This document shows, piece after piece, positions 3,612 through 22,259 of a stretch of 22,259 nt of DNA. The stretch covers positions 1-22,259 of IMG/VR virus record IMGVR_UViG_3300042549_003079. The stretch is one strand, 5' to 3'. This DNA is from a virus. The notes under the pieces are model-generated. The model searched no databases, had not been told where the DNA came from, and saw only the letters and a program-made list of their open reading frames with translations. Numbering within the stretch: position 1 is the stretch's first letter; each line of letters begins with the position of its first letter. A program made the translations under genes and the position numbers.

Positions 3612-5049
3612 TCAATAGCTGTCGCCAGCACCTGTGTTCACACGCTGAACAAATGTGCTTGTTCGTGCGCCTGATACAGCAGCGCCTGTTGCGGAGATGT
3701 TGTGTAGAACTCCGACGCCCGCAGGGTTCCTACAAATCAAGGTTCCTTCAAGAAGAAATTGATCCAGACTGGCGTCGGCGTTGCTAAAAACTTCATTATT
3801 AGGTCCTAGGTCACGCAAGGAGCCCCACTGTAGAACATCTTCGTTCATGAAGTAGATCTGATCGCTTACACCTGCTTGGTCCATGATCCAGGAATCATAG
3901 ATTTCGTATGTGTAGTTGAAGTCGCCTTCATAAGTCTGGATTGTGTCACCACGCTCAACGTTACGACGGTTGATGCTGGTGTTGGAGTTCACAATGTTGT
4001 CAGAGATCATGGTGCGCAGGCTGGTTGGAACAACCATGGTGCGGATCTTGGCATTGTAACGCTGTTCAGCAGTTGTTACCAATTGCTTGTACAACACAGG
4101 CTGGAACAATTGGTTGGTAAATGTTCCTGTGTAGAACTCAGTACCATTGGCGCTGATGTTCAAGTTACCAACGTTGGCAGTGCTAGAGTCAGAACTGGCG
4201 TTGTTGGTGTTTGTGGTGATGTTGGCTGTGCCACTATTGCTTGGGTTGAAACTGTGCGTTCCTGCGAAACTATTCAATGAACCCATACGACGACCGCCTG
4301 TTTGGGCAGTTGTTGGATTGGTAATAGCAGTACCAGATTGACCTGAATACTGTGTGCCGATTTGGTCAGCACGAACCAACTGCATTTCAACGTCGAACAT
4401 GAGTTCGATCAGCTGCTTGACTTCTTGGTATGCTTGTGGGTCACCACCAGCCTGCATCACAGCACGAGCTGTTCCTGAAGCTGCAATAGTTGTCTGGAAG
4501 ATCTGTGTGTAGTTGCCCAGGTTGTAACGCTGATTTGATTCTGCGTTTGATGTAGATACAGCAGCACCTTCGTCCACGGCTTGAGCAGCAGGCAGTCGAT
4601 AGATGTCATCTGTCCACAAAGGCAATGTTGAATTGACCTTGCGTTTTTTGCTCATACACATGTTGAGCACTGGTGTGTCGTCTTTTCATTTGTATTCGCG
4701 AAAAAATCGTTAGTTTCTTCACCGCCTTATCAGCTGCTGTATATTTCTATACAGATTAGACTATCTCACAATCCTTTACAGGATCCTTTGCACTTCGGAG
4801 CACTTGCCCCTACGACCTCGCGGTCTAGTCGTTACACCTTCCAACTTAGTTGGCTTGGCACGGTATTGTCTTCAACTTTACTTGCTAAGAGTTTCACCGT
4901 TTTCACAAAGTTATTCAATACACATTACTGTGTAAGGGCGCTCAAGAGTTAACGCGGTTGGATACGTCTAGATCCAGATCCTTGACAACGATGTCACTGC
5001 CGTATGCTGTAGTACCGTTACCAATTTGACTTGTTGTAATTTCTGCCAT
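3612..5049 (-). CDS. Major capsid protein, SU10/DUF5309-like, split by a group I intron
   Basis: The coding sequence is join(5049..4952, 4686..3612) on the minus strand, giving 390 residues. Exon 1 starts at an ATG with AGGAG seven bases upstream and encodes 32 residues (MAEITTSQIG to DVSNR) plus GT. Exon 2 supplies the third base of a valine codon and continues KDDTPVLNMCMSKK. Unspliced reading stops two codons after the GTT, giving only 35 residues. The joined N-terminus has the DTPVL segment and the W57-T-D-D motif typical of this HK97-fold family. The central NYTQIFQTT, a Glu/Asp-rich helix and GGRRMGSLNSF also fit. The gene follows portal and scaffold and ends at a strong terminator. A start at the GTG at 4670 would give a 352-residue truncated protein with no ribosome-binding site, so I reject it. 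Confidence 0.88.
4687..4951 (-). ncRNA. Group I self-splicing intron, 265 nt, no internal ORF
   Basis: The intron interrupts the capsid gene after codon 32. On the minus strand the classic R and S core elements are visible as AACGACTAGA (about 4832-4823) and GAGATAGTCTA (about 4767-4757); their GACTA and TAGTC arms form P7. P1 pairs exon GCGT with intron GCGC, placing the diagnostic U-G pair at the 5' splice site (4952/4951). P10 can form between AAGA at the start of exon 2 and TCTT in the guide sequence. The intron ends in G at 4687. P2 (TACACA/TGTGTA) and a 7-bp P9 hairpin with a GAAA loop (CTGTATA/TATACAG) are clear. P3 (CGGT/ACCG) is plausible, while P5, P6 and P8 were not resolved. It has no homing endonuclease gene. 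Splicing is inferred, but frame restoration at the paired ends supports it. Confidence 0.88.
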
Positions 5050-5073: not shown

Positions 5074-6225
5074 TTATCTTCTGCCGCCGCGTATTTGTTG
5101 TAAACGCTGCACCAGTAAGTTGTCTCCGGCTTTTTTATCGCCGGCTTTGGCTTGTTCACGAAGTTTGCTCATGCCATCTTCAGTTGATCGGTTTGTGGAT
5201 GATCCTTTGCGGCTGGTCAATGCTGCCATTGAACTGCCTGCTGATTTTGTGACAGGCTTGCCACGGTATTTTAAACCATCGCGCACCAAGGCCATCAAAC
5301 TCTCATCTGAACTGATCAAATCAATATTGGCAATGCCAGGAATAATCTCGCTATGTGCCTGTGGCCAAATCTTAGCAACCTTGTCACGCAGTTCGTTGTA
5401 GACATATTCGTTTCTCAACTCCTTGTCCTGGAACCCTTTGCGTGCGGCTTCTAATCTTTCGCTCACTTGATTTCTACGAACTTGTCTGAATTGATCCACT
5501 GCTGGTTTCAATTCACCAATAACACTTTGCTGTTGACGAATGTATTGTTCATTCTGTCTCATGCTGGCTTCAATTCTGGCACGTTGTCCAGGATCTTGCG
5601 TTTTAGCAAGTTGTTGTTGGAACGTGGTTTGGTAACCTTGCGTTTTAACAATCTCATCGTAGGCACCTTGCAAGCGTGGCTCTACAGTAAACTCCATAGC
5701 CAGTGTTAGTCCTTCTTGTTGTGCTCGCTGGGCTTGAAGATATTCATCAAACTCGGCTCGCTCAACCTTTAACTGGCGTGCATCTTCGTGTATTGCTCCA
5801 CCTTGACCTAGAATGGCAGCGGCTCGTTTGGCATCAATCACAACTTCTTTACCATTGCGGGTAAATTTGAATTTGGCATTGGGATTAGTCTCTGCAAATT
5901 CAATAAAGTCAATAAGATCATCTGCTGAACTATTTGAGTTGTCTGGGCTTACCTCTTCAGGGGCATCAGCGTTCAAATCGTCGCTTGCGTATTCTGTATC
6001 TTCAGTATCAGCAACTTCTGGCTCTACACTCTCGTGGGCCACAGGCTCGGAAGATTCCTCTTCTACTCCTGTTGCAGTCTGCTCGGTTGCACGAATTAGG
6101 TTACGCTCAGTATGCTCTCGCATGGCGGCCATCTTTTGTGCAATTGAGTCCAGGCTAGGGACTGCTGGGTTGTCATTGGCCGTAGTCACTGGGTCAGGAC
6201 TATTAGGCGTGATCATGGTTGTCAT
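5074..6225 (-). CDS. Scaffold-like capsid assembly protein
   Basis: A 383-residue hydrophilic protein between the portal block and the capsid gene, where scaffolds are encoded. A disordered, acidic N-terminal third (about 50-105, rich in Glu, Asp, Ser and Pro) is followed by KFKFTRNGKEVVIDAKRAAAIL. This is a short motif often seen in phage scaffolds of this type. A long Gln/Glu/Arg-rich region with coiled-coil character follows (about 150-290). A basic C-terminus ends in QQIRGGRR, suited to capsid binding. Start: ATG at 6225 follows AAGGAAATTTA; an upstream TTG at 6243 lies before the SD and is rejected. A CTAAATA motif lies about 50 bases upstream. The role comes from position and composition; no protease domain is apparent. 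Confidence 0.7.
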   Translation of the reverse strand: MTTMITPNSPDPVTTANDNPAVPSLDSIAQKMAAMREHTERNLIRATEQTATGVEEESSEPVAHESVEPEVADTEDTEYASDDLNADAPEEVSPDNSNSSADDLIDFIEFAETNPNAKFKFTRNGKEVVIDAKRAAAILGQGGAIHEDARQLKVERAEFDEYLQAQRAQQEGLTLAMEFTVEPRLQGAYDEIVKTQGYQTTFQQQLAKTQDPGQRARIEASMRQNEQYIRQQQSVIGELKPAVDQFRQVRRNQVSERLEAARKGFQDKELRNEYVYNELRDKVAKIWPQAHSEIIPGIANIDLISSDESLMALVRDGLKYRGKPVTKSAGSSMAALTSRKGSSTNRSTEDGMSKLREQAKAGDKKAGDNLLVQRLQQIRGGRR

Positions 6226-8977: not shown

Positions 8978-8997
8978 GTACCACCAAATCCCTGGGT

Positions 8998-9222
8998 TTA
9001 GTGTGTGATTATGATTTCAGGTGCTGGATCAGGATCTGCTGCTAGACAAGCACGACACTCCTGACCAAAGTCTTCAATCTCCAATGGCTCTATGCGTAGC
9101 CGCACGCCATTGCCATCTGCAAGGTCTATCAAGGCCAGGGCGTGTCGATGGCACAGCAACATTAGGCGTTGACCCATGTAGATTCTTGAGTGTGCAATAC
9201 CGTCGTCTTCAGGTTCTGTCAT
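8998..9222 (-). CDS. Small zinc-binding-like protein (74 aa)
   Basis: A short protein with two metal-ligand pairs: LLCHRHA near residues 23-28 and ECRAC near 57-61. This CxxC-like arrangement, separated by about 30 residues with a beta-rich middle, suggests one zinc site. Similar small proteins with LC..HA and C.AC are common in aquatic phage genomes, but their function is not known to me. The start ATG overlaps the stop of the preceding AT-hook gene (ATGA), and AAAGGAA provides a ribosome-binding site. It is translationally coupled to the packaging genes. Confidence 0.75.
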   Translation of the reverse strand: MTEPEDDGIAHSRIYMGQRLMLLCHRHALALIDLADGNGVRLRIEPLEIEDFGQECRACLAADPDPAPEIIITH

Positions 9223-15143: not shown

Positions 15144-15512
15144 TCACGGCTGGGCCGCCCAGCTATCATCCAGCACAACATCTCTGGCACCTTGACCAAG
15201 ACTGCTGTGAGTTCCACGACGTCTAACACCATGACTGCTTCTGGTGATCACAATCACGTTGGAATCACTCCAGGCATGAGCACAGTCACGACGAGTGATA
15301 CACAGTGACTCGGCTGTTCTGCCACGCAGGTGCCAGCGACCTGCCCAGTGCGCCTGCCATTCCGCAAAGGTCAGCTGCCAGGGTTCTGATCTAAAACGTG
15401 CTTGATTACGGCACTGTATGAATGCACGATACTGCTCGTGTGTGGTGACATCTGTGCCTGTGACCCAGGTCTGGGGTCTGGGTCCACGTGCGGGATTAAT
15501 TGGTTTTGCCAT
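15144..15512 (-). CDS. Conserved small phage protein of unknown function (122 aa)
   Basis: Matches the layout of a small protein widespread in tailed phages: RGPRPQTWVTGTD, then H-x-x-Y-x-A-F with RNQARFRSEPWQLTFAEWQ, WHLRGRTAESLCITRRDCAH and W-S-D-S-N-V-I-V-I-T-R. The conserved R-G-R, T-R-x-D and W...N residues are all present, but I know no assigned function. The C-terminal tail (about 100-122) is more variable. AAGGAATCAAAACA precedes the ATG at 15512. It is the first gene after the repeat-rich gap and may be controlled from it. Confidence 0.75.
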   Translation of the reverse strand: MAKPINPARGPRPQTWVTGTDVTTHEQYRAFIQCRNQARFRSEPWQLTFAEWQAHWAGRWHLRGRTAESLCITRRDCAHAWSDSNVIVITRSSHGVRRRGTHSSLGQGARDVVLDDSWAAQP

Positions 15513-15549
15513 TGTTTTGATTCCTTAAAAGTTGTTGATTTTGGTCAGT

Positions 15550-15715
15550 GTAGACTGTAGACAGTAGACAGCACGAATACGCAAGAACACATAAAAACAT
15601 AAGAAAATATATATAAAATCTCGTTTATATGTAACCGCGTCTACGTGTCTACTTTGTCTACAACCACCCTGCATTCTGCGTTCGCTAGGCCGTCTGACTT
15701 ATTTTTAGTGTAGAC
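15550..15715. repeat. GTAGAC repeats around an AT-rich core: candidate replication origin or operator
   Basis: The 217-base gene-free gap (15513-15729) has seven copies of GTAGAC. Three are in tandem at exact 7-base steps (15550, 15557, 15564). Three lie in the opposite orientation (15639, 15647, 15656). One more lies at 15710, and an eighth within the end of the DUF3987 gene (15776). Between the opposed groups is an AT-rich stretch (about 15590-15630) containing ATATATATAAAA. Opposed repeat clusters around an easily melted core, beside a primase and a helicase-like gene, fit an origin. They could instead be operator sites; both are inferences. Confidence 0.6.
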
Positions 15716-15729
15716 CAGCGTTGACAAAA

Positions 15730-17169
15730 TCATTCTGGTTGTGCTACGCTGTATTGCGTTTTTTCGCGTCCATTTGTAGACACAACACTGGCCACATTCA
15801 CCAGGCCATCGCGTACCAATTCTTCTAAAATTTCATCGCGTTCTGCTGTAGTAAGCTCACGGAACCATCTCACAAACTGAGTCAATTCTCGTTTGGTGCC
15901 CGCAAAGTTCTTTTGCCGCATCCAAGCCAGCAAGCGTTGTGTGGCAGTGGCCTGTTGTGGATTGCGTGTGGTAATGCCCAGTTCCAGGTTCACACGCTGT
16001 TCTGTAAAGTAGTCCATGAGGTCCACTGCTGCCAAGGCTGTGTTCTGATCCACAACAACTCGTTGTTCAAAAGCTGCCAGGGTGCCTGCAATGCGTAACG
16101 CATGCTCATACAAGCGTTCAGCAAAGCCTGCCCAATTGTGCAAATCATGTTGTGCTCTACTGCGATTGGCGTTGATGTATATTTCAAACACTTCACGTGC
16201 TTCGGGTGATATTGAGATAGTGTGTCTATCCAGTTCAAAATGTCTGTCTGCTAACAAGTGTAATCTTGCTGAAATCAAGTGATCAATGTGATCATGAAAT
16301 GGATCCAGTTTAGCTCGAAGTTGTGCAATGTGTTGCATGCCTGTGTCTGTTAAGTCAGTGAGTGTGTCTTCAGTGCGTTCGGCCTGGGTGATTAGAATAC
16401 GATGCACAAAGCCCTGACTGGAGTACATGGGATTGTTCAAGAACTCTCTAATGGTTTCTTCCTGTAAGAAGAACATCATGTTCACTGCTCTGTTGTGCAA
16501 GCGCACATTGTTGTCCTGTATGCCTGTTTGGCGTTCAATCACAGTGCCATCCCACATTGATGTCAGTGCGGCTGACATTTCAATTGATCGGCTTTGGTCA
16601 CGACCACCTTGGAAACTGTGACTGTTGAACATCTCACCGGCTTCGGCTGAAAACAAGCCCACAAATGGCTGTCCACGTAACTGATCTATGATGCCGTTTA
16701 GAGTGGCTTTTTTCAGTCTGTAATTGGCAGTTTCTCTAGGACGCACTTCAGCAGGAGGTGTAGGTACTATGGTAGGATTGCCAGGAATCTGCACAGCCGT
16801 TGCATGACTCTCCATGTCCTTTTCATACTGCTTGAGTGCTTTTTGATACACACTGTTTTCAACTTTCACACGCACTGGTTCATCCTTCAGCATGTCCCAA
16901 CGACGCTTTTCAAAACGTTCAATGCCCACTGATACTTCATTGTAGTTGGTGCTCTTGCGCATGCCTGTGGGCAACATACACAAGATGTACAGGCTCAAAG
17001 GAATCTCACCAAACAGGATTGAATCTATCCGGTAGTGTGGCATCACTGCCAGGTTCACTATGCCCAACACAGCAGGCATGGCCAAGGCATCTGGTGTGTT
17101 GTGCAAGTCCTGTAGTGTTTGTATTGCTGACCGCATCAAGGGCGGTAATCTATCAAATCTCTTGTCCAT
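15730..17169 (-). CDS. DUF3987-like helicase/ATPase of the replication module
   Basis: A 479-residue protein with the DUF3987 layout: an N-terminal PAVLGIVNLAVMPHYRID helix pair, then PLSLYILCMLPTGMRKST (about residues 56-74). In DUF3987 this last segment is a degenerate P-loop of G-x-R-K-S type. Further parts are VGLFSAEAGEMFNSHSF, SMWDGTVIERQTG, RAVNMMFFLQEE and FVHRILITQAERT. The C-terminal 100 residues, with AWMRQKNFAGTKRELTQF and REKTQYSV, look like a winged helix for DNA binding. Such proteins often lie beside primases in mobile elements and are thought to act as replicative helicases. The start at 17169 has AAGGA nine bases upstream; the ATG at 17178 abuts the SD. The gap to the primase stop is one base. 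Confidence 0.75.
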   Translation of the reverse strand: MDKRFDRLPPLMRSAIQTLQDLHNTPDALAMPAVLGIVNLAVMPHYRIDSILFGEIPLSLYILCMLPTGMRKSTNYNEVSVGIERFEKRRWDMLKDEPVRVKVENSVYQKALKQYEKDMESHATAVQIPGNPTIVPTPPAEVRPRETANYRLKKATLNGIIDQLRGQPFVGLFSAEAGEMFNSHSFQGGRDQSRSIEMSAALTSMWDGTVIERQTGIQDNNVRLHNRAVNMMFFLQEETIREFLNNPMYSSQGFVHRILITQAERTEDTLTDLTDTGMQHIAQLRAKLDPFHDHIDHLISARLHLLADRHFELDRHTISISPEAREVFEIYINANRSRAQHDLHNWAGFAERLYEHALRIAGTLAAFEQRVVVDQNTALAAVDLMDYFTEQRVNLELGITTRNPQQATATQRLLAWMRQKNFAGTKRELTQFVRWFRELTTAERDEILEELVRDGLVNVASVVSTNGREKTQYSVAQPE

Positions 17170-17170
17170 A

Positions 17171-18175
17171 TCAATCATTCCTTATCATGCGTCTAATTGC
17201 CGCTAAATCTCTGCGATCTTGAGCTAACACTGCTCGATTGGTCAACACTATGTTGCCGTTGTCAAGCACTTGCCGATCTGCTGCAATGTCTCTGCGCAAA
17301 CAGTCCTGCCCGTGTCTTTGTTTTAAAAACCATATCACAGTGCCCATGGTGATGCGGCCACCGGGTCGGCCATCTGCCCAGACCTGAGCTGCCATGGCCG
17401 GAGTCTTTTGACTCATCATGCCCCCTGTCACATACTGGTAATCACTCACGGCAAAGCCTCCTGCTTTGAGACCCCAGCCAATGTCACGCCATTTGGTATA
17501 CTCACCCACGTGTGTGGTCTTCAACAGATCCAAGATGCGTTGGCGTGTCCAGTCATCCAAGGGCTGATGTTCCACAACAGAGTTGCGTGACATTTCGGCA
17601 GCTTCCCAGGCATTGTACTGATCAATCAGTTGAGTCACTGCTGAATCTGGAAACACTGTGTCAGTGCGTTCGCACAGCACACAGCCAGGTGATCCGTAGA
17701 AAATTCTAGTGGCATCTTTACAGGCAGCATCTGCTTGTGTGTAACGTCTCATGAGCATCTTGTTCAGTTTCACAACGTTAGAGGCCGTAGTCAGTGGAGT
17801 CTCTAATCTAAACATTATGCGGAACCTGTGTGCATCATCTCTGTGACTGGGAGTGGCATAAAAGCCTGCGGCATACTGATTGTAGAACTTGTCTTCAAAC
17901 AGTTCAGGAATGGTCATGCCAGAATCAATATCAACCATGATCAAGTCTCTGCTGACAAAGTTGTCCTCTTTGCGATTGTCACAGGTCAACTCTGCTGAAG
18001 TGGCAAGTCCATCCACTGTGATTAATTCAAACACTGTGGGCCAGTCGGCTTCAAGATTTTCCCAACCCCATCCTAGGTTCACTCGCTGATTGTTGTGCTG
18101 ATAGTAGGGCCGGCCAGTTTCATCTTGAAGTTTCTGGGGCTTGCCTCTGATCACAGTGTGATAACTCAATTTCAT
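17171..18175 (-). CDS. Primase of the archaeo-eukaryotic type (prim-pol-like)
   Basis: A 334-residue protein with the layout of AEP primases of phages and plasmids. The metal-binding pair is IMVDIDSG (D82, D84), followed by FYATPSHRDDAHRFRIMFRLETPL (about 105-128), which holds the S-x-H and nucleotide-binding basic residues. DATRIFYGSPG (about 155-165) comes next. The C-terminal part includes GEYTKWRDIGWGLKAGGFAV, which resembles a PriCT domain. It would make primers or short DNA at the fork together with the adjacent DUF3987 protein. Start: the ATG at 18175 has AGGAAAATGAAC upstream; an ATG six bases earlier is too close to the SD. Its 5' end overlaps the 55-residue gene by 56 bases. Confidence 0.75.
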   Translation of the reverse strand: MKLSYHTVIRGKPQKLQDETGRPYYQHNNQRVNLGWGWENLEADWPTVFELITVDGLATSAELTCDNRKEDNFVSRDLIMVDIDSGMTIPELFEDKFYNQYAAGFYATPSHRDDAHRFRIMFRLETPLTTASNVVKLNKMLMRRYTQADAACKDATRIFYGSPGCVLCERTDTVFPDSAVTQLIDQYNAWEAAEMSRNSVVEHQPLDDWTRQRILDLLKTTHVGEYTKWRDIGWGLKAGGFAVSDYQYVTGGMMSQKTPAMAAQVWADGRPGGRITMGTVIWFLKQRHGQDCLRRDIAADRQVLDNGNIVLTNRAVLAQDRRDLAAIRRMIRND

Positions 18176-18287
18176 GTTCATTTTCCTTTTGATGTTTCAA
18201 TTCTAACCATGCTTGTTCAAATGCCTGCATCAAGCTGTGTATGCTTTCATGTGGCATTTTCAAATCATCTGGATCTGGAGTTTTCAT
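18120..18287 (-). CDS. Small 55-residue protein overlapping the primase start
   Basis: This short frame begins at an ATG that overlaps the stop of the previous gene (ATGA) and extends 56 bases into the primase gene in another frame. It is mostly helical (PDPDDLKMPHESIHSLMQAF, EQAWLELKHQKENEHEIEL). The AAAAGGA inside it is the primase ribosome-binding site, so its translation is likely coupled to primase synthesis. Function unknown; support comes from coupling and composition. Confidence 0.55.
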   Translation of the reverse strand: MKTPDPDDLKMPHESIHSLMQAFEQAWLELKHQKENEHEIELSHCDQRQAPETSR

Positions 18288-20192: not shown

Positions 20193-20624
20193 TCAGTCTA
20201 AGGTGCTGGAAAGCATCCAGATTGACTTGGCAATGTCCAAGATTTGATCCTGTGCGTAGTTGCTTATTTCCGCGTGACCTTCTGAATCAGCCACTGCCAT
20301 GAGTTCTTCATAGCATGCTTTGAGTAATTCCAGGTCTTCACGAACAGATTCAAGTAATTCATCTGCGTCTCCTTCTATGTCACTGTCTGATATTTCGCTG
20401 CAGGCCAACACTTCTGTGATGCTCACAGGCATAAACGCATCTAGAGTACGCAAGAGTTCTGCAAGCACATCAATCTCGGCTTGACGTCGTTCATACACAC
20501 CCTGAAGCAGTTTGTGATCTGATCGAAAGTTGCGACCCATGATGTTCACATGTGCTGTGTGGCTGCGATAGTATGTGACAAAGTTGTCACAGAACACCTG
20601 TGTTAGTTGTTGTTGTGTGGTCAT
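20193..20624 (-). CDS. Dps-like ferritin-fold protein
   Basis: A 143-residue protein with the Dps/ferritin four-helix pattern: NFVTYYRSHTAHVNIMGRNF, HKLLQGVYERRQAEIDVLAE, then an acidic second half. Compared with the E. coli Dps ferroxidase site (H51, H63, D67, D78, E82), His25, His37, Asp52 and Glu56 fall at the same spacings; the D67 equivalent is Gln41. Dps oxidises and stores iron and protects DNA from peroxide damage in a 12-mer shell. Here it lies at the end of a virion-protein operon, coupled by ATGA to the upstream gene. A phage role (DNA protection in the infected cell or virion) is inference. There is no long Lys-rich DNA-binding tail. Confidence 0.75.
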   Translation of the reverse strand: MTTQQQLTQVFCDNFVTYYRSHTAHVNIMGRNFRSDHKLLQGVYERRQAEIDVLAELLRTLDAFMPVSITEVLACSEISDSDIEGDADELLESVREDLELLKACYEELMAVADSEGHAEISNYAQDQILDIAKSIWMLSSTLD

Positions 20625-21394: not shown

Positions 21395-22259
21395 TATTGA
21401 TTACTCCTAAAGTCCACTACACCACCGCGTCTAATGGCTTCAAGTTTTGGAACCAAATCTTGATAAATCTTGTCACCAATAGTGTCATCAAATCGGCTGC
21501 GAAGCAGTGCAGGATTCTGTGTGGGATCCGCACTTGCCAAATAACGAGCAAAACGTTGATTGTACAGAATTTGTGCTCGAGCAATTTCAACCTGTGTACG
21601 AGCAGCTTGCGGTGTGTTACGCAAGTTTGCTGCCAAAGCGTCAACAACTCGCTGACTTTCACGCTCAGTGTTGAGTTGACTTGCTGTGAGTCCGCTTTGT
21701 GTGATGCCAGCCACTTCTAGTTTGCGCAAGTCATTGACCAAGTTCTGGAACTCAGTTTTGTCTTGCGGTCTAATACGTGCGGCATTGCTTAGGTCTTCCA
21801 GGCGTTTTTGTTTTTCTGAGTCTTGTGCTACCACAAATGCAGTAAATGCTGGTGATTGCAACGAGTTGGCAAAGTCAGGACGCTGTTCCAGTGTTTTGCT
21901 AATTCTATCAATAGTGCTTATCAATTGCGGTGCATTTGCAGAAGCAGTGGCTGCTGCCGCAGCAGCTTTTGAATTGATATCAATAAACGCTCTTGGTATA
22001 GATTCGCCAGTCTGAATACGCTCTTTGGCTGCAGCTTCGTTAGTACGTTGGCGGCTTTCTCTTGCTCCAGGAGTGTCACCACCCGGAACCACACTCAATC
22101 GCACACCACCACCTGGGGCAGTTTGAGCAGTGACAGGTGCAGGCGGTCTTTGTGTTTGTGCTTGTGCTTGACCTGCTGGTTGTGCTTGTGCTTGACCTGC
22201 TGGTTGTGCTTGTGCTTGACCTGCTGGTTGTGCTTGTGCTTGACCTGCTGGAGCCGCAC
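21394..22259 (-). CDS. Gln/Ala-rich virion protein, N-terminus beyond window
   Basis: The frame is open through the right edge, so the start is missing; at least 287 residues are visible. It begins with PAGQAQAQ repeats, then a Pro/Gly linker with VRLSVVPGGDTPGARESR. The main body is helical (KERIQTGESIPRAFIDINSK, DRISKTLEQRPDF, TEFQNLVNDLRKLEVAGI, RTQVEIARAQILYNQRF). It resembles tail or internal virion proteins in which a repeat linker precedes a helical region, and an N-terminal enzymatic domain could lie upstream. A GTG at 22104 is internal and not the start. Coupled by TAATG to the next gene. Confidence 0.6.
   Translation of the reverse strand, partial: AAPAGQAQAQPAGQAQAQPAGQAQAQPAGQAQAQTQRPPAPVTAQTAPGGGVRLSVVPGGDTPGARESRQRTNEAAAKERIQTGESIPRAFIDINSKAAAAAATASANAPQLISTIDRISKTLEQRPDFANSLQSPAFTAFVVAQDSEKQKRLEDLSNAARIRPQDKTEFQNLVNDLRKLEVAGITQSGLTASQLNTERESQRVVDALAANLRNTPQAARTQVEIARAQILYNQRFARYLASADPTQNPALLRSRFDDTIGDKIYQDLVPKLEAIRRGGVVDFRSNQ
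22157..22252 (-). repeat. 24-bp tandem repeats encoding PAGQAQAQ
   Basis: Four copies of a 24-base unit with near-perfect identity; the string acctgctgg recurs at 22171, 22195, 22219 and 22243. On the minus strand they encode repeated P-A-G-Q-A-Q-A-Q, a flexible linker. The repeats may continue past the window end. Confidence 0.85.

Follow-up and report, generated by a model that had tools for sequence, protein, structure and literature searches.

A probable replication origin with convergent iterons next to the DUF3987 helicase gene of a tailed phage

Short iterons at the origin of P4 are recognised by the alpha protein, a primase-helicase initiator in which primase and helicase are fused, and P4 replication involves ori plus the distant crr site. 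A 2018 description regarded the origin layout of phage-inducible chromosomal islands (PICIs) as unlike that of any other replicon then known, and in PICIs cloned pri-rep-ori segments with this arrangement are capable of autonomous replication (Fillol-Salom et al. 2018, PMC6092414). AEP primases associate with exchangeable ATPase domains, DUF3987, VirE (VapE) or DUF927, which are predicted helicases; the helicase prediction for DUF3987 was made independently of our analysis, and the winged-helix C termini of primase-helicases were suggested to recognise origins (Kazlauskas et al. 2018, PMC5862659). A literature search for DUF3987 together with iterons, or for GTAGAC, found nothing relevant.

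The window analysed here is the whole 22,259-base stretch of an IMG/VR virus record. Since this contig is a fragment, further origins may be present elsewhere in the genome. The window encodes a terminase large subunit, an SU10-type portal and an SU10-type major capsid protein, and these genes mark it as a piece of a tailed-phage genome. MW202484, the nearest complete phage record (50% identity for the terminase, 45% for the portal), is annotated without a primase or helicase of the type described below. The capsid gene appears to be interrupted by a Group I intron (4737-4961, minus strand; Rfam RF00028, 64.8 bits), which sits between a short upstream exon starting MAEITTSQIGNGTTAYGSDIVV and the main capsid ORF (3612-4670). 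A Ferritin-like/Dps-type protein is encoded at 20193-20624 on the minus strand (PF00210, E 5.5e-14; PHROG 'DNA binding protein'), and an 84% identical copy is found in L047. The features of the array and its surroundings are as follows:

15144-15512, minus strand: ORF of 122 aa on the far side of the array, downstream of the candidate origin
15550-15569, plus strand: iteron arm A, GTAGAC three times at 15550, 15557 and 15564 (7-bp steps)
15570-15638, no strand assigned: AT-rich core (71% AT) separating the converging arms
15615-15626, minus strand: core motif AAACGAGATTTT, with AAAC[GA]A[GA]ATT common to all eight DUF3987 loci
15639-15661, minus strand: iteron arm B, GTAGAC three times at 15639, 15647 and 15656 (8- and 9-bp steps)
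15664-15692, minus strand: 29-bp block CGGCCTAGCGAACGCAGAATGCAGGGTGG adjoining arm B, identical in L001/L002
15710-15715, plus strand: outlying GTAGAC copy, intergenic
15730-17178, minus strand: DUF3987 protein of 482 aa, predicted replicative helicase/initiator (PF13148, PHROG phrog_2373)
15733-15996, minus strand: C-terminal winged-helix domain of the DUF3987 protein (AlphaFold2), proposed to bind the iterons
15776-15781, plus strand: outlying GTAGAC copy within the 3' end of the DUF3987 gene
17171-18181, minus strand: primase gene that overlaps the DUF3987 gene; C terminus PriCT-2-like (PriCT_2, PHROG DNA primase)

The order at the array is thus primase, DUF3987 helicase and, immediately 3', the array. 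GTAGAC occurs eight times within 232 bases (15550-15781), five times on the plus strand and three times on the minus strand, and arms A and B converge across the 69-bp core. This bears out the earlier note, which had described eight copies in about 230 bases, three of them in tandem at exact 7-base steps and three facing the opposite way across an AT-rich tract. Its siting of the array in a gap beside the primase/helicase genes was right as to adjacency, but the array is not purely intergenic: the copy at 15776 lies within the DUF3987 coding sequence, so that the feature overlaps this gene. Elsewhere in the 22.3-kb window, where the same note had suggested counting GTAGAC, five copies are found, which is about chance level (expectation for the whole window 6.12). 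A turn of the GC skew, also looked for at its suggestion, was not seen at the array.

A Poisson estimate for at least eight copies in 232 bp at the window rate is about 6e-15, a value that ignores the choice of the hexamer. Since a second cluster of eight identical hexamers is present near 22156, and order-1 Markov sequences have best hexamer clusters of usually 4-5 and rarely 6-9 copies, the copy number alone is less telling than the arrangement. We therefore refer to a convergent-arm score, which requires a 6- or 7-mer to occur in 2+2 copies or more, in arms 40-130 bp apart. The window array reached 24 (3+3 around the core), and a score of at least 18 was obtained for 7 of 13 regions 3' of helicase genes of differing types, compared to none of 593 other 550-bp tiles of these contigs. 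No such arrangement arose in 100 shuffles of the region.

A search of IMG/VR with GTAGACNGTAGACNGTAGAC returned 23 stretches, which were mostly unrelated, degenerate heptamer runs. Tandem GTAGACN triplets in stretches without this helicase raise the idea that the window array, too, is a functionless product of slippage. Those 23 stretches lack both this helicase and this primase and mostly have no flanked core, while the spacing in the window varies (7, 8 and 9 bp), the arms are inverted and the arrangement outlasts changes of the repeat sequence; we regard slippage as scarcely credible. The degenerate tandem heptamers of these viral contigs (L004-L026) are of the type GTAGACN/GTAGGCN; a contig often has several of these runs, and in some cases they face one another. 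At 1448-1623 of L022, very AT-rich DNA is flanked by GTAGAC-type repeats, which is possibly another origin of this kind.

Within the core, positions 15591-15630 form the least stable 40-mer of the whole window, as calculated from nearest-neighbour energies. No DnaA box (TTWTNCACA, at most one mismatch) was found in 15401-15900; this is compatible with a self-sufficient initiator and gives no support of its own.

Related phages were then compared, as the earlier note had also proposed, and the same architecture recurs at the same position in the other DUF3987 loci found in IMG/VR. Eight distinct loci of this kind, perhaps representing five independent lineages, were recovered, all on contigs that are fragments; alignment-based scans returned only the same loci from viral contigs and none from genome contigs. 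In L001/L002, with a helicase 86% identical to that of the window, the 3+3 GTAGAC copies, including arm B, and the core are nearly unchanged, while spacing and flanks differ. The bases on the far side of the 29-bp block (15664-15692) diverge in these two loci. L003 (helicase 56% identical) has the same core at the same place, flanked by GTGGAC-AAA-GTTGAC-AAA-GTGAC and its inverse, a perfect inverted repeat of 21 bp. The arms consist of GTTGAC in L035, of GTAG/GTAGC in L037, L051 and L052, and of a mixture of GTAGC and GTAGAC in L053. A counterpart of arm A is present in L001, L003, L035, L037 and L051-L053. Three sites per arm are found in the window, L001 and L042, and nearly three elsewhere.

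Each of the eight DUF3987 loci has the motif AAAC[GA]A[GA]ATT shortly after the helicase-proximal arm, at a similar offset and flanked on either side by repeat arms; the nine regions with a VapE-like or DUF5906 helicase lack it. In 510 kb of fetched DNA the motif has 22 matches, including those eight. As it is shared by loci with differing repeats, the comparison points to a core that stays conserved whereas the repeats drift (GTAGAC, GTTGAC/GTGGAC, GTAGC). Arrays of short repeats may also act as plasmid-type partition sites, and a site of this type, or another structural repeat that lies beside the helicase by chance, might be considered. An origin accounts better for the single unstable core with its fixed motif, for the inverted arms and for the link with the helicase, and no partition genes were recognised among the scanned window ORFs, which makes a partition site or chance repeat highly improbable.

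A scan with the primase motif VDIDSGMT led to further relatives (40-77% identical). VapE-like helicases are encoded in L033, L034, L040 and L045 (L043 matches L034), and DUF5906 helicases in L036, L038 and L042 (L046 is like L042). In many of these loci the helicase gene is again followed directly 3' by AT-rich DNA enclosed by inverted repeats, which read TGCGACTACTAA, CGTAACA, GTGTAG or TTTACAGCAAC. GTNGAC was absent from the nine VapE-like and DUF5906 regions, except for one copy in L040. Arms were weak or unscored in L040, L045, L037 and L038, and no array was scored directly 3' of the VapE helicase gene in six cultured phage records.

An exchange is seen in L033/L043, with a terminase 92% and a primase 76% identical to those of the window, yet with a VapE-like helicase and inverted repeats of TGCGACTACTAA. 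In L033 the portal (86%) and the downstream 122-aa gene (53%) are likewise shared with the window, and helicase and repeats are replaced. Conversely, L052/L053 possess a DUF3987 helicase with the DUF3987-type core and GTAGC/GTAGAC repeats despite another primase, which did not match a profile of the window primase family and gave weak matches to PHROG primase and origin-binding entries. Together, these two cases show that the iteron and core sequences go with the helicase type; they follow neither the primase nor the downstream gene nor the terminase.

This comparison also bears on two other functions of the array. Packaging (pac/cos) sites, which the terminase recognises, may be marked by short repeats close to the packaging genes; the array is about 4.5 kb away from terL and travels with the helicase, and the almost identical terminases of L033/L043 go along with unrelated repeats, so that a packaging site is very hard to defend. 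The earlier note had offered, besides an iteron origin, an operator array for a phage regulator, which would act on GTAGAC to control an operon starting with the 122-aa gene. Arm A indeed lies 38-58 bp upstream of the ATG of this gene, and the core contains a weak promoter-like site (9/12), but promoter-like sites are not more frequent than in shuffles. The 122-aa gene is kept within the lineage regardless of the helicase and origin type, for example in L033/L034/L043 with wholly changed repeats, and it was not found beside the array in L003, L035 and L037, where the array persists. Since the array tracks the helicase instead of the downstream gene or the terminase, the operator reading is weakened and we consider it unlikely. 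The iteron origin, in turn, is strongly supported by the comparison of relatives; chance-level GTAGAC in the rest of the window and an arrangement kept in relatives are what one would expect of an origin.

The DUF3987 protein matches PF13148 above the curated cut-off (E 8e-36, 124.5 bits versus 27) and the PHROG DNA helicase family phrog_2373. All eight DUF3987 proteins contain PT[GA]xxK[ST]T, in part because this motif was used as search query; the lysine and the serine/threonine of the P-loop are kept, and the second glycine of the standard Walker A motif is absent. AlphaFold2 predicted the last 88 residues to form a winged helix (H-E-H-H-H-E-E, pLDDT 81, five natural sequences). The full-length model had a pLDDT of 34 (three sequences); the C-terminal domain alone was modelled well. 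Its structural matches are general winged-helix proteins, including DNA-bound repressors and the Bacillus replication terminator protein, and as no single match stands out, we claim only the winged-helix fold. We infer that this winged helix reads GTAGAC, and the sequence comparisons indicate that the DUF3987 helicase would be the protein that recognises the repeats. A tblastn search with the DUF3987 protein revealed no relative in 50,697 phage records. Plasmid relatives are 21-25% identical among the matches listed, and an array of this kind was absent from both of the two that were inspected.

The primase, which we take to be of the AEP type, matches PHROG DNA primase, and its PriCT_2 match (20.7 bits) is just under the cut-off of 22, which the L036 homolog passes. 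The MVDIDSGM motif, a putative hhDxD-type catalytic motif, is conserved. In L036, L040, L042, L045 and L046 the primase gene is preceded, at a distance of a few hundred bases, by ORFs with FYVG...N...R..EH, which by eye resemble GIY-YIG endonucleases. Among the relatives, primase identity ends about 40 residues before the C terminus, and the tails differ by helicase type; for this reason the exchanged cassette seems to comprise the primase tail, the helicase and the origin. It is possible that the array is bound by the primase tail, as these last approximately 40 residues change together with the helicase.

Our preferred reading is that the array is very probably the replication origin of the phage, with iterons bound by the winged helix of DUF3987, paired helicase loading and a bidirectional start. 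The DUF3987 protein, a product of the adjacent primase-helicase operon, would bind the GTAGAC iterons via its C-terminal domain, and the inverted arms with three iterons each would place two helicase assemblies face to face. These assemblies may open the AT-rich core; the two helicases would then pass outward and the companion primase would lay primers, leading to bidirectional replication.

A broader proposal is that DUF3987 is an origin-recognising helicase and that PICI-type origins serve tailed phages as exchangeable units, in which helicase, matching iterons, core and primase tail are replaced together, between unrelated helicase types and at a constant site in the genome; we see about equal grounds for accepting and doubting it. 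If it holds, PICI-type origins are a general phage design and not a speciality of satellites, and ordinary tailed phages share an origin layout that had been reported from phage-inducible islands alone. DUF3987, a family without tested function, would gain a specific DNA target and a role as initiator, and the helicase-iteron pairs (GTAGAC, GTTGAC, GTAGC and others) would provide a natural series for studying the evolution of specificity.

Repeats of comparable arrangement are present in two cultured phages. E. coli phage Bas97 (L057, PQ850606) has convergent GGTGAC copies, 3+3 with more outside, around a 101-bp stretch at about 5534-5700, some 2 kb 3' of the primase-VapE gene. Acinetobacter phage Loki (L050, LN890663) has convergent AATAGT repeats around an AT-rich stretch at about 8978-9113, between divergent genes and upstream of the primase/DUF3987 gene. 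In view of these two phages, the convergent-arm design may be more widespread among phages than has been appreciated.

Among the described systems, the PLE satellite origin shares iterons bound by the element's own initiator, a binding that is proposed for the window; unlike here, this initiator is RepA, a RepA_N-family protein and not a helicase, and the iterons are semi-palindromic and lie in a large non-coding region (PMC7145576). Iteron plasmid origins of the DnaA-dependent type differ from the window, which has no adjoining DnaA box. The primase-helicases analysed by Kazlauskas et al. (2018, PMC5862659) were described with no mention of iterons, whereas in the phages compared here a defined cis-acting sequence is exchanged along with the helicase type, and separate genes encode the primase and the helicase. 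The closest likeness is to the PICI/SaPI origins (PMC6092414), in which two iteron sets also flank an AT-rich region, primase, initiator helicase and origin follow in the same order with the origin immediately 3' of the initiator gene, and the repeat sequence varies between elements. Unlike these satellites, the window comes from a tailed phage that itself encodes capsid, portal and terminase, its helicase is of the DUF3987 type and its core motif is strongly conserved. By analogy, the window origin would work like a PICI origin, and with virion genes of its own on the contig it is nevertheless no PICI.
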